From NCBI GenBank assembly GCA_902826025.1, contig CADEDH010000002.1:115487-179486 (forward strand): DNA of 64,000 nucleotides, written 5' to 3'. Positions 43,605-48,727 of the stretch are shown one piece after another (position 1 is the first letter of the stretch; each line of letters begins with the position of its first letter). This DNA is from an uncultured Actinomycetes bacterium (GTDB lineage Bacteria; Actinomycetota; Acidimicrobiia; Acidimicrobiales; SZUA-35). The translations under genes and the position numbers were made by a program. The notes below the pieces were generated by a model, which saw only the letters and a list, made by a program, of their open reading frames with translations, had not been told where the DNA came from and did not search any database.

Positions 43605-46600
43605 CTACAAGACCACGGAATCGGCCCCCAGCAGCACCCGCAGCTCGGGAATCAGGCCGTTCGAGGTGTCGACGCAGTAGGCGTCGGACAGCCGTAGGGC
43701 TTTGGTCTCGCCCAGGTGGATCACCACCGGTGACTCGCCCGGATGGTCCACCAGCACCACCTTCAACCGGTTGATGACCTCGTCGGAGAGCTGGTTGGGC
43801 CGGATGTCGAGCCGGAGCGGCGGGGAGGCCGACGCCCGCTCGGTGTCGAACACCTCGATCGACTGGGCCATCAGCTTGGGCTGGTCGTCCCGGCGGTCCA
43901 CCCGCCCCCGCACGATCACCACCCGGTCGTCTTCCAGGAGGTGGCCGTAGTCGGTGTAGGAGCGGGGGAAGAGCATGGTCTCCACCGAGTGGGTGAGGTC
44001 CTCCAGCACGAACACCGCCATCAGGTCGCCCTTGCGGGTCCACTTGCGCGCCATGCCCGTCACCACACCGCCCACCACCACCATCTGACCGTCTTCGCAG
44101 TCTTCCAGGTCGGCGATGGTGGCCTCGGTCTTGCGCTCCAGCGCCGCCTCCAGGCCCATCAACGGGTGGTCCGACACATACAGGCCCAGCATCTCCTTTT
44201 CGAAGGCCAGGCGCTGGGACTTGTCGAACTCCTGGTTGGGGATGGCCGGGCGGTCGTCGAAGCTCGCCCCGTTGCCTCCTTCGCCAGCGTCGCCCCCGCT
44301 ATCGCCACCCAGGCTGCCGAACAGCGTCATCACGCCCATGTCGTGCTCCCGGCGGGCGCTGACCGTTTTGTCGACGATGTCCTCGAAGGCGAGCAGCAGG
44401 CCCTTGCGGGGGTGGCCGAGCGAGTCGAAGGCGCCGGCCTTGATCAGCGACTCCAGCGTCCGCTTGTTCAGCACCTGGTAGTCGACCCGCTCGCAGAAGT
44501 CCATGAAGCTGGCGAACGGCCCATTGGCCGCCCGCTCCTCGAGCAGGAGATGGACCAGGCCCTCCCCCACGTTGCGCACGGCCGACAGGCCGAAGGCGAT
44601 GGCGTTGAGCTGGCCTCCTTCGGGGTCGGGGATGGAGGAGAAGTCGAGGTCGGAGATGTTGACGTCGGGTACCAGCACCTTGATGCCGAGCTGGCGGCAT
44701 TCGTTGAGGTAGACCCCGGCCTTGTCGAGGTTGGTCTTGACGCTGGTGAGCAGGCAGGCCAGGTACTCGACCGGATAGTTGGCCTTGAGGTAGGCCGTCT
44801 GGTAACTGACGAAGCCATAGCCGTAGGAGTGGCTCTTGTTGAAGGCGTAGTCGGCGAAGGGCTCCATGGTGTCGAAGAGCTCTTCACCCAGGGCCCGGCC
44901 GTAGCCCTGGGCCTCGCAGCCGTTCACGAACCCCTCGCGCTCGGCCTTGATCAGCTCCCGGATCTTCTTGCCCATGGCCTTACGCAGGTTGTCGGCCTGG
45001 GCCAGCGTGTAGCCGGCGAACTTCTGGGCCAGCTGCATCAGCTCTTCCTGGTAGATGCACAGGTTGTAGGTGCTACCCAGGATCTCGGCCGCGTCGGGGT
45101 GGAACGGCACCGACTCCTTCCGCCCGTTCTTGCGGTCGGCGTAGTCGTTGTGCATGTTGGCCGCCATCGGGCCCGGCCGGTACAGCGCCACCAGGGCGGC
45201 CACGTCCTCGAACTCGGTGGGGGCCATGGAGCGCATGAGGGCCCGCATGGGGGCCGACTCCAGCTGGAACACGCCGATGGAGCGGCCCTCGCGGAGCAGG
45301 TCGAACGTGGGGACGTCGTCGAGCGGGACATTGTCGATGTCGAGGCCGATCCCGTGGACCTTCTCGATGAGGGCCAGAGCATCGGAGATGACGTCGAGGT
45401 TGCGCAGGCCCAGGAAGTCCATCTTCAGCAGGCCGAGCGATTCCACCCCCTTCATCTCGTACTGGGTGACCACCGGGGCTTCCTCGATGGGCTTGCCCGC
45501 TTCCGGCTTGCGCTGGATCGGAAGGTAGGTGGTGAGAGGATCCCGGGTGATCACCACCGCCGCGGCATGGATGCCGTCCTGGCGGCGCAGGCCCTCCAGC
45601 CCCCGGGCCACCTCCACCACCTTGGCCGCATCGACGTCGGTGTCGACCATGGCCCGCAGCTCGGCCGCCGCCTTGTAGCCGTCGGCGTACTTGTCACTCT
45701 GCTCGAAGCAGAACTTGAGCGGGGTGTCTCGGCCCATCACCAGCGGCGGCATGGCCTTGGCGATCTTGTCGCCCACGGCGTAGGGGTAGCCGAGCACCCG
45801 GGCCGCATCTCGCACCGCGGCCCGGGCCTTGATCTGGCTGAACGTCACGATCTGGGCCACGTGGTCGCGCCCGTACCGCTCGGCGGCGTAGCGGATCATC
45901 TCGTCCCGGTAACGGGAGTCGAAGTCCATGTCGATGTCGGGCATCGAGATGCGGGACGGGTTGAGGAACCGCTCGAACAGCAGGTCATAGCGGATCGGAT
46001 CGAGGTCGGTGATCCGCAGGCAGTAGGCCACGGCGCAGCCGGCGGCCGAGCCGCGGCCGGGGCCCACTCGGATGTCGACGTCCTTGGCGTGGCGGATCAG
46101 GTCCCACACGATCAGGAAGTAGGAGCTGAACCCCATGTTCTTGATCACGTCGAGCTCGAAGGCCAGGCGTTCGGTGATCGTGTCGGTGAGGCCGGCCCCC
46201 CAGCGCTGCTTGGCCCCCTCCATCGTGAGGTATTGCAGGTACTCGTCGTTGGAGGCGAAACCGTCGGGAATCGGGAACTCGGGCAGCTGCGGCTTGCCGA
46301 ACTCGATCTCGACGTTGGCCCGCTCGGCGATCCACAGCGTGTTGTCGCAGGCCTCGGGCAGCTCGCTCCAGGCCGCCCGCATCTCGGCCGCCGACTTCAG
46401 GTAGTGCTCGTCGCCGTGGAACTTGAACCGGTCGGGGTCGCTCATCAGCGAGCCGGTCTGCACGCAGAGCAGGGCGTCGTGGGAGACGTGGTCGGCCCGC
46501 TCGGTGTAGTGCGAGTCGTTGGTGACCACGAGCGGGGCCCCGATCTTGCGGGCGATCTCGATCAGCTTGGGGTTGGTGTCCCGCTGGGCCTGGATGCCGT

Positions 46601-47174
46601 GGTCCTGGATCTCGACGAACAGGTTGTCCTTGCCGAAGATGTCCTGGAGGCGGGCCGCCTTCTCCAGGGCCGCCCGCTCGTCGCCCTGGAGCAGCGACTG
46701 GAGCACGTGGCCGCCCAGGCAGCCGGTGGTGGCGATCACACCCTCGGCGTGGTCGGCCAGGACCTCCCAGTCCACCCGGGGCTTGTAGTAGTAGCCCTCC
46801 ATGTAGGCCCGGGAGGCGAGCTGGATCAGGTTCTTGTAGCCGGTGTTGTTCTCGGCCACCGCGATCAGGTGGTAGTAGAGCTTCTTGCCCCCGTCGGTGG
46901 AGCCGCCCGAGTCGTCCACCTTGCCCCGCCGGCTGGGTTTCTCGAACCGGGAGTCGTCGGCCTGGTAGAGCTCGATGCCAATGACGGGGTTGATCTCGTG
47001 TTTGCGGCAGGCCTTGTAGAAGTCCAGGACGCCGTACATGTTGCCGTGGTCGGTGATGCCCAGGGCCGGCATGCCGTCCGACGCCGCCTTGGCCACCAGG
47101 TCATCCAGCCGTGAGGCCCCATCGAGCATCGAGTACTCGGTGTGGACGTGGAGGTGGGTGAACGACGAGCCCAC
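43605..47174 (-). CDS. dnaE: DNA polymerase III alpha subunit DnaE1
   Basis: Replicative polymerase, about 1189 residues. The N-terminal PHP domain starts HLHVHTEYSMLDG with the HxH metal ligands and ITDHGNMYG, so a proofreading PHP exonuclease as in mycobacterial DnaE1 is possible. The palm has GPGRGSAAGC and the catalytic Asp pair in MPDIDMDFDSR. The C-terminal OB domain includes VVVGGVVTGMARKWTRKGD. GTG 47174 is 11 bases after AGGAG; GTG 47186 overlaps that site and is less likely. A short hairpin (43578-43591) lies after the stop. Three DnaA-box-like sites lie upstream. Confidence 0.97.
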   Translation of the reverse strand: MGSSFTHLHVHTEYSMLDGASRLDDLVAKAASDGMPALGITDHGNMYGVLDFYKACRKHEINPVIGIELYQADDSRFEKPSRRGKVDDSGGSTDGGKKLYYHLIAVAENNTGYKNLIQLASRAYMEGYYYKPRVDWEVLADHAEGVIATTGCLGGHVLQSLLQGDERAALEKAARLQDIFGKDNLFVEIQDHGIQAQRDTNPKLIEIARKIGAPLVVTNDSHYTERADHVSHDALLCVQTGSLMSDPDRFKFHGDEHYLKSAAEMRAAWSELPEACDNTLWIAERANVEIEFGKPQLPEFPIPDGFASNDEYLQYLTMEGAKQRWGAGLTDTITERLAFELDVIKNMGFSSYFLIVWDLIRHAKDVDIRVGPGRGSAAGCAVAYCLRITDLDPIRYDLLFERFLNPSRISMPDIDMDFDSRYRDEMIRYAAERYGRDHVAQIVTFSQIKARAAVRDAARVLGYPYAVGDKIAKAMPPLVMGRDTPLKFCFEQSDKYADGYKAAAELRAMVDTDVDAAKVVEVARGLEGLRRQDGIHAAAVVITRDPLTTYLPIQRKPEAGKPIEEAPVVTQYEMKGVESLGLLKMDFLGLRNLDVISDALALIEKVHGIGLDIDNVPLDDVPTFDLLREGRSIGVFQLESAPMRALMRSMAPTEFEDVAALVALYRPGPMAANMHNDYADRKNGRKESVPFHPDAAEILGSTYNLCIYQEELMQLAQKFAGYTLAQADNLRKAMGKKIRELIKAEREGFVNGCEAQGYGRALGEELFDTMEPFADYAFNKSHSYGYGFVSYQTAYLKANYPVEYLACLLTSVKTNLDKAGVYLNECRQLGIKVLVPDVNISDLDFSSIPDPEGGQLNAIAFGLSAVRNVGEGLVHLLLEERAANGPFASFMDFCERVDYQVLNKRTLESLIKAGAFDSLGHPRKGLLLAFEDIVDKTVSARREHDMGVMTLFGSLGGDSGGDAGEGGNGASFDDRPAIPNQEFDKSQRLAFEKEMLGLYVSDHPLMGLEAALERKTEATIADLEDCEDGQMVVVGGVVTGMARKWTRKGDLMAVFVLEDLTHSVETMLFPRSYTDYGHLLEDDRVVIVRGRVDRRDDQPKLMAQSIEVFDTERASASPPLRLDIRPNQLSDEVINRLKVVLVDHPGESPVVIHLGETKALRLSDAYCVDTSNGLIPELRVLLGADSVVL

Positions 47175-47225
47175 GGCGGATCGCACTCCTAGCTGTCCCG
47201 GGACGGTGCGCCCCGAGTTCGGGGC

Positions 47226-47259
47226 TTACCCACAGGGTTTGCCCACAGAATGTGGACAA
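47226..47259. promoter_or_regulatory. Cluster of three DnaA-box-like sites upstream of dnaE
   Basis: TTACCCACA (47226-47234) and TTGCCCACA (47239-47247) lie on the plus strand and TGTGGACAA (47251-47259) is the exact reverse of the actinobacterial consensus TTGTCCACA. The first two differ from TTATCCACA or TTGTCCACA at one base each. They lie 52-85 bases upstream of the dnaE GTG and in the only gap between dnaE and the gene before it. Confidence 0.6.
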
Positions 47260-47288
47260 ATCACATGGATGTCATTCCGAGCCTATCC

Positions 47289-47945
47289 TCAGGACAGCGG
47301 CGAGTGAAACCCCTCCAGGAACTCGGCCATGGCCCACCCCCAGGCGATGACGTACTCGCCGCTGGCCGGGTCGATACCGTCGAGGATGGCCGAGCCCGAC
47401 ACAGGCTTCAGGGCATCGTGATCGAACACCAGATGCTCACCATCTCCCCTGGCGATCATCGACCGGTCGTCGAACGCCAGCGCCCCGAACCGCTTGGACA
47501 GCCGCCGGCCCCAGGCCCGCTCCTCCCCGTTGGCCCGGGTCTCGGGCCAGGGCCGGACACCCTCGAGGCCGGTGAATGCCTCCAGCGGCCCGGGGGATGT
47601 GAGGCGGGAGGCCACGATCACGTCTTCATCGGGGAAGGCCATGAGCGCCTTGTGGTAGCTCTCGTACATGAGGGCCTTGAGCACCGCGCCCCGCTGGCGG
47701 GTGCGGGCGATGGAGGCGATGCCGATCACCATGGCCGGCGTGCCCCCGATCCGCTCCAGGGTGGTGAGCATGAACCCCTGGAGCCGGTCGCCGTCGACGG
47801 CCATGCTGGCCAACACCCACTCCTCGGCCTGTTTGGACAGCAGGCCGAGCCCCCAACCCGCCCCGGGCGCTGCCACATCGGCCATCTCGGCAAAATCACT
47901 GTCGCCCAGGGCTGAGCAATCCTTCGTCACAATTCCGACTGCCAC
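47289..47945 (-). CDS. Conserved-looking hypothetical protein
   Basis: 218 residues, no signal or membrane segment. FMLTTLERIGGTPAMVIGIA followed by RQRGAVLKALMYESYHKAL loosely resembles the central strand and pyrophosphate loop of GNAT acetyltransferases, but the match is weak and no function is assigned. GTG 47945 is the first start. Upstream of dnaE on the same strand with the DnaA-box cluster between. Confidence 0.7.
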   Translation of the reverse strand: MAVGIVTKDCSALGDSDFAEMADVAAPGAGWGLGLLSKQAEEWVLASMAVDGDRLQGFMLTTLERIGGTPAMVIGIASIARTRQRGAVLKALMYESYHKALMAFPDEDVIVASRLTSPGPLEAFTGLEGVRPWPETRANGEERAWGRRLSKRFGALAFDDRSMIARGDGEHLVFDHDALKPVSGSAILDGIDPASGEYVIAWGWAMAEFLEGFHSPLS

Positions 47946-48073: not shown

Positions 48074-48604
48074 CTACAGGTAGACGCCGCCCTGCTGGGG
48101 CGGACCGCCGGGTTGCGGCCCCTGAGGTAGGGCCCCCGACCGCTGCATCAGCTCCAGCTGCTGGCGGGCCGCCGTCTGTTGGGCGAACAGGGTGGCCTGG
48201 ATGCCGTGGAAGAGGCCCTCGAGCCAGCCGACGAGCTGGGCCTGGGCCACACGGAGCTCGGCCTCGGACGGGATGCCGGCGTCGGCGTCGAAGGGAATGG
48301 CCAGGCGGAGGAGCTCGGCCTCGAGATCGCTCGACAGGGCGCCGGCCAGCTCCTCGACCGAGGTCTCGTAGATCTCGCGCAGCCGATCCCGACCCCGCTC
48401 GTCGAGCTGGGTGCCCCGCACCTCCTCGAGGAGCTGCTTGATCATGGTGCCGATCCGCATCACCTTGGCCGGCTCCGACACCGTCATCGGTGATTCGTCC
48501 TCGCCGACGCCCTCGTCCCGGACCGGCAGGACCGCAGCCGGAGCCACGTCGGCCGGATCAAGGATCTCAGGGGTCTCGGGCGCCTGGTCACTCATGTCGT
48601 CCAT
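48074..48604 (-). CDS. bpa: Bacterial proteasome activator Bpa/PafE
   Basis: 176 residues. Dodecameric ring that docks on the 20S proteasome and stimulates ATP-independent protein degradation. AKVMRIGTMIKQLLEEVR, IPSEAELRVAQAQLVGWLEG and LFHGIQATLFAQQ match mycobacterial Bpa closely. The C-terminus GGVYL gives Val-Tyr-Leu, an HbYX-type gate-opening tail. The acidic N-terminal 40 residues look disordered. ATG 48604 or 48595 are both possible. Proteasome genes themselves are not in the window. Confidence 0.95.
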   Translation of the reverse strand: MDDMSDQAPETPEILDPADVAPAAVLPVRDEGVGEDESPMTVSEPAKVMRIGTMIKQLLEEVRGTQLDERGRDRLREIYETSVEELAGALSSDLEAELLRLAIPFDADAGIPSEAELRVAQAQLVGWLEGLFHGIQATLFAQQTAARQQLELMQRSGALPQGPQPGGPPQQGGVYL

Positions 48605-48727
48605 CTCACTTCGTCGGCCTGTCGGATCACTGCTCACGCTACAACCGGCCACCGCCTCGCGGCGCTCGCCGCCGGTCGGGGACGCGAAATCCACGTCTAC
48701 CCGGCTGATACCCGGCTGAGCCCAGGC

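Follow-up and report, generated by a model that had tools for sequence, protein, structure and literature searches.

A candidate composite control element of McdR/ResR and DnaA sites in the dnaE leader of an Acidimicrobiales genome

Background

Three DnaA-type 9-mers lie close together upstream of dnaE, the gene of the replicative DNA polymerase III alpha, in the stretch of DNA analysed here (the window, 64,000 nucleotides; G000:C2:115487-179486 of a 6.87-Mb genome in 162 contigs). The question raised by this locus was whether DnaA acts at these sites to control the supply of polymerase. The boxes turned out to form the lesser part of a longer element, which reaches 47276 with a palindrome and 47285 with a -10 hexamer. 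With a probability of about 0.72, dnaE has here a composite control element that spans its promoter and leader, in which McdR would repress at the transcription start and DnaA, bound alongside, would modulate the outcome.

The dnaE locus and its DnaA boxes

The dnaE gene was assigned to 43605-47174 (- strand) from its open reading frame and NCBIfam model NF004226, which its product matched with 1379.6 bits (cut-off 1002). The longest start of the reading frame is at 47186 and the likely one is the GTG at 47174, as judged from the spacing to the ribosome-binding site (AGGAG, 47186-47190) and from the starts in relatives. The gap upstream of dnaE (47187-47288) contains all three 9-mers. It is bordered by an open reading frame for a product of 218 amino acids (47289-47945, - strand), the stop codon of which adjoins the putative -10; the NCBIfam search with this gene gave no match. 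In several relatives, its place directly upstream of dnaE is taken by a gene ending like the one at 48074-48694.

The preliminary description had reported three 9-mers within 34 bases, one of them exact, and these were confirmed at 47226-47259. Two are predicted DnaA-box-like copies on the + strand with one mismatch each, TTACCCACA (47226-47234) and TTGCCCACA (47239-47247), and the third is a predicted DnaA box on the - strand, TTGTCCACA (47251-47259), with the exact actinobacterial consensus. A DnaA box cluster was understood as several TTRTCCACA-like 9-mers within tens of base pairs, here one exact and two one-mismatch copies. The 9-mer TTGTCCACA is the high-affinity DnaA box of Mycobacterium tuberculosis and Streptomyces coelicolor (PMC4285127). 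The locus resembles actinobacterial origins and DnaA-controlled promoters (PMC4285127) in the 9-mer consensus, the clustering and the presence of DnaA in the genome, and differs from them in that the boxes lie in a dnaE leader, adjoin a MerR operator and include two imperfect copies.

Genome-wide site counts were obtained by pattern searches of the 6.87-Mb genome, which also gave the box density that had been proposed as a background. Exact TTRTCCACA was found 7 times (17 for the reversed control) and TTRYCCACA 25 times (53 for the reversed control), three of the 25 being inside the 34 bp before dnaE. The dnaE leader is the only place in the genome with inverted TTRYCCACA copies at most 30 bp apart (control, 0), and the triple at 47226-47259 is the only one of its kind. 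At 25 copies in 6.87 Mb, we estimate that about 1e-6 triples within 34 bp would arise by chance per genome. The cluster is regarded as real and not as a chance occurrence because three of the 25 copies fall within 34 bp and no other inverted copies lie within 30 bp, despite genome-wide counts below those of the reversed controls.

A second DnaA-box cluster, consisting of TTGTCCACA, TTATCCACA, TTACCCACA and TTCTCCACA, lies partly in the 3' end of gyrA and partly just beyond it (G000:C5:150556-150764; L045:10557-10764). The intergenic regions flanking dnaA in this genome have few good DnaA boxes.

Predicted McdR/ResR operator and promoter

Directly upstream of the boxes in the dnaE sense is an 18-bp palindrome, AATGACA-TCCA-TGTGATT (AATGACATCCATGTGATT; 47259-47276, - strand), which overlaps the exact box by one base and is predicted to be an McdR/ResR operator. 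It matches AATnACAnnnnTGTnATT at 12 of 12 positions and has a 4-bp spacer. The palindrome consensus of the dnaE leaders of the order, AATNACA-N4-TGTNATT, was derived blind, independently of the McdR motif paper (PMC9040748), and is letter-identical to the published motif.

McdR (Rv1830, also ResR) is a mycobacterial MerR-type repressor, and its binding to AATnACAnnnnTGTnATT has been shown by DIP-seq, EMSA and mutation; at whiB2 it acts as a repressor on a site that surrounds the transcription start, and changes to the half-sites or to the length of the spacer abolish the effect (PMC9040748; PMC10336103). The dnaE leader is like mycobacterial whiB2 (PMC9040748) in having the 18-bp palindrome AATnACAnnnnTGTnATT around the start, a predicted one here, and in that the regulator family is encoded in the genome. 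It is unlike the whiB2 operator in its target, dnaE, and in the DnaA boxes that abut the operator. The text of PMC9040748 does not name dnaE1 as a direct McdR target, and nothing relevant was found in the literature on DnaA or McdR control of dnaE. Neither the target, dnaE, nor the composite of McdR and DnaA sites appears to have been described before; the parts are known and their combination is new.

Three other proteins were considered as binders of the palindrome and rejected. FtsR (Rv1828 / Cg1631), with sites at ftsZ, is also a MerR-type division regulator and is encoded at the same conserved locus in some genomes, but its published motif, AACCCTAAAGTAAAGGTTGAGGGTA (a 25-bp repeat), differs from the dnaE palindrome in sequence and length and does not match it (PMC6683498). 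LexA was set aside on the separate GAACNNNNGTTC site that recA leaders have beside the palindrome, and NrdR on the separate NrdR-like box seen by eye in nrdJ leaders.

A putative -10, TAGGCT (TANNNT; 47280-47285, - strand), ends 3 bp upstream of the operator. The sigma-70 promoter scan of the region gave no match; the case for the -10 is made from conservation instead. Its place is conserved in the leaders of relatives: a TANNNT ending at most 12 nt upstream of the operator was present in 37 of 40 operator leaders, compared with 0 of 40 in each of two control intervals. Counted from the putative -10, transcription is predicted to start at approximately 47273-47277, which would place the operator at about +1 to +18 and the boxes at about +18 to +51 of the predicted transcript.

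Conservation of the operator and the boxes

For comparison, 55 dnaE leaders of the order were used. Almost every genome in this set represents a different family, and shared ancestry is thus limited, not removed, as a cause of the patterns. An operator score of at least 10/12 was reached by 40 of the 55 leaders (0.18% of shuffled leaders) and a score of at least 11/12 by 31 (no shuffled leader). Within the order, 31 of 59 genomes have the exact operator (control, 0), as do 26 of 60 across the phylum, where the control matched in two genomes. In the genome studied here the exact operator occurs twice, before dnaE and where scpA begins (control, 0).

The boxes follow the operator on one side. 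In the 62 nt after it, 61 TCCACA/TGTGGA cores were counted, compared with 1 in the 62 nt before it and 0.8 in shuffles. Among the 40 operator leaders, 28 had at least one core and 23 at least two, and no such core was present in the 15 leaders without an operator. The first box was TTGTCCACA in 13 of 26 leaders, and its distance from the operator was 1-4 nt. The second box was inverted in 20 leaders and direct in five. The gap within the 20 inverted pairs was either 2-6 nt (16 pairs) or 16-17 nt (4 pairs); the difference between the two classes is close to one helical turn, which is suggestive only, the numbers being small. Boxes followed the exact operator in 14 of 15 cases at dnaE, compared with 0 of 9 at whiB, 0 of 3 at nrdJ and 0 of 2 at recA (background, 6.6%).

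These counts bear on whether the operator might be the only functional site, the TCCACA repeats being extended McdR contacts or the site of another protein, without DnaA binding. The stronger conservation of the operator and the tight spacing (2 nt in 16 of 26) would fit such an arrangement. However, hardly any other McdR target has the boxes (whiB, for one, has none), and so McdR does not need them; moreover, they occur in both orientations, and with TTG before the core in half of the cases at spacings of 1-4 nt, as DnaA boxes would. We consider an operator acting without DnaA unlikely.

Conservation of the boxes before dnaE, which had been suggested as a check, held across the order, where the cores far outnumber those in shuffles, and only partly within the family. 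The same-genus genome (L343) scores 11/12 for the operator and has three similarly spaced box-like copies, and two further family members (L345, L354) have the operator with boxes. In all 14 other family leaders examined the boxes are absent: four members (L344, L352, L353, L355) have the operator without boxes, and the rest, which make up about half of the family leaders, have no good operator. The absence of boxes from close relatives, which the preliminary description had set against DnaA control, thus holds only in part: the boxes are gained or lost from one relative to the next, and the operator is steadier. Among 28 phylum-wide leaders (one from this order), the operator was found in 15, and boxes in 3 of these 15. 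As judged from these leaders, the predicted operator is better conserved than the boxes, which are patchy within the family, and is both steadier and phylum-wide.

The original proposal of direct DnaA control of dnaE is supported in part, by boxes that match the consensus and are strongly enriched, but it missed the adjacent and more conserved McdR operator. DnaA control is plausible because the boxes match the published box, are enriched in the dnaE leaders of the order and lie within the predicted transcribed leader.

Alternatively, the cluster could mainly titrate DnaA in a datA-like manner rather than regulate dnaE, titration being a possibility raised in the preliminary description. The few exact boxes in the genome would give each site more weight, but a titration locus would be expected to have more than three boxes, two of which are imperfect here, and across families the boxes go with the start of dnaE transcription, at a constant distance from the -10 and the operator. 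We hold titration as the main role to be quite improbable.

Slightly less probable still is that the inverted boxes form an RNA hairpin in the dnaE leader, as an attenuator or stability element. The direct repeats of five relatives cannot pair, and the box flanks are without covariation: position 1 pairs in 16 of 20 (16.0 expected) and position 3 in 13 (11.0 expected). Palindrome positions 4 and 15 pair in 8 cases, compared with 12.5 expected, and neither an Rfam match nor a terminator-like site was found in the leader. The leader of this genome does fold, with a 10-bp stem TTTGTCCACA/TGTGGGCAAA (-41 kcal/mol, z -1.84; 9 of 200 shuffles as good), so that a hairpin is possible in this one genome. 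An RNA hairpin or riboswitch was rejected on this lack of covariation and of an Rfam match.

A collection-wide scan for the operator with an adjacent core returned more than 117 stretches, nearly all from Actinomycetota; the few sites in other phyla look like chance matches. Of 85 sites examined, 26 were at dnaE, and others were near crgA, rhomboid, ppiA and gyrA. In many Actinomycetes (e.g. L292, L227), the composite is located between crgA and the rhomboid/ppiA/gyrA neighbourhood near the origin, and not at dnaE.

McdR orthologue and other operator sites

The genome encodes an McdR orthologue (L212:2842-3303; Pfam MerR_1), which is 43% identical over 133 residues to the copy in L222, where the gene order is Rv1828-DUF151-Rv1830-gcvP. 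In the genome studied here, mcdR is near a DUF151 gene and an FHA (GarA-like) gene, and in its promoter a TACGAT hexamer is followed by a 10/12 operator. Of the 59 genomes of the order, 56 have an McdR homologue. In one genome, a pair of overlapping palindromes stands before a MerR-type gene, which itself follows a DUF151 gene immediately, as Rv1830 follows Rv1829 in M. tuberculosis. The mcdR promoter of a small-genome actinobacterium (L170:about 1500-1550) has two overlapping operators, with three half-sites in a row.

The only other exact operator of the genome (G000:C49:26980-26997; L041:1501-1518) overlaps the scpA start codon region and is directly behind a TAGAAT hexamer, in a neighbourhood of scpA-scpB and divergent trpS; the ScpA product was confirmed by Pfam. 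In relatives, the operator also precedes scpA, smc, dnaA, dnaB, nrdJ, dut, recA, lexA, mraZ, crgA and whiB. Products behind exact operators in other genomes were confirmed by Pfam as DnaA, SMC, LexA, RecA, class II ribonucleotide reductase, WhiB, MraZ, DnaB, MreB, dUTPase, CrgA, a sigma factor and an FmdB-like zinc ribbon protein, those of RecA and WhiB a second time; a NurA-like match was just under the cut-off. Leaders of recA and one HNH-endonuclease-like leader (L081, L149, L060) have the McdR operator beside a separate LexA-type GAACNNNNGTTC site.

Proposed mechanism and significance

From the boxes, the operator match, the -10, their conserved order and spacing and the encoded McdR orthologue, all of which are observed, we infer both binding events, the sign of the regulation and a connection with the cell cycle. 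RNA polymerase would use the -10 TAGGCT, and a dimer of McdR (MerR family, Rv1830/ResR orthologue) on the palindrome would repress initiation. By analogy with mycobacterial whiB2, McdR should block initiation at dnaE. MerR proteins often activate, and repression at dnaE is therefore assumed from the position of the operator at the start site. DnaA on the three adjoining boxes would modulate transcription, either as a roadblock that hinders elongation, by competing with McdR where the nearest box touches the operator, or in both ways. The output of dnaE would then be set by the levels of McdR and DnaA.

In mycobacteria, McdR/ResR is an essential protein, with a reported link to drug resilience in tuberculosis. 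Operators at dnaE and other replication genes throughout the phylum suggest an older role of McdR in the control of chromosome replication. It is a tentative proposal, somewhat short of even odds, that McdR/ResR was ancestrally a regulator of the replication programme of Actinomycetota and that, at dnaE, DnaA and McdR compete over replisome supply. If true, the McdR operator would govern the replisome and chromosome machinery (dnaE, dnaA, dnaB, smc, scpAB, nrdJ, dut, recA, lexA) and division genes as well (mraZ, mreB, crgA, whiB). If McdR and DnaA share a site, replication initiation would be linked directly to polymerase supply, and the arrangement of the sites, which many relatives retain, suggests that this supply may be wired both to the start of replication and to a division checkpoint.
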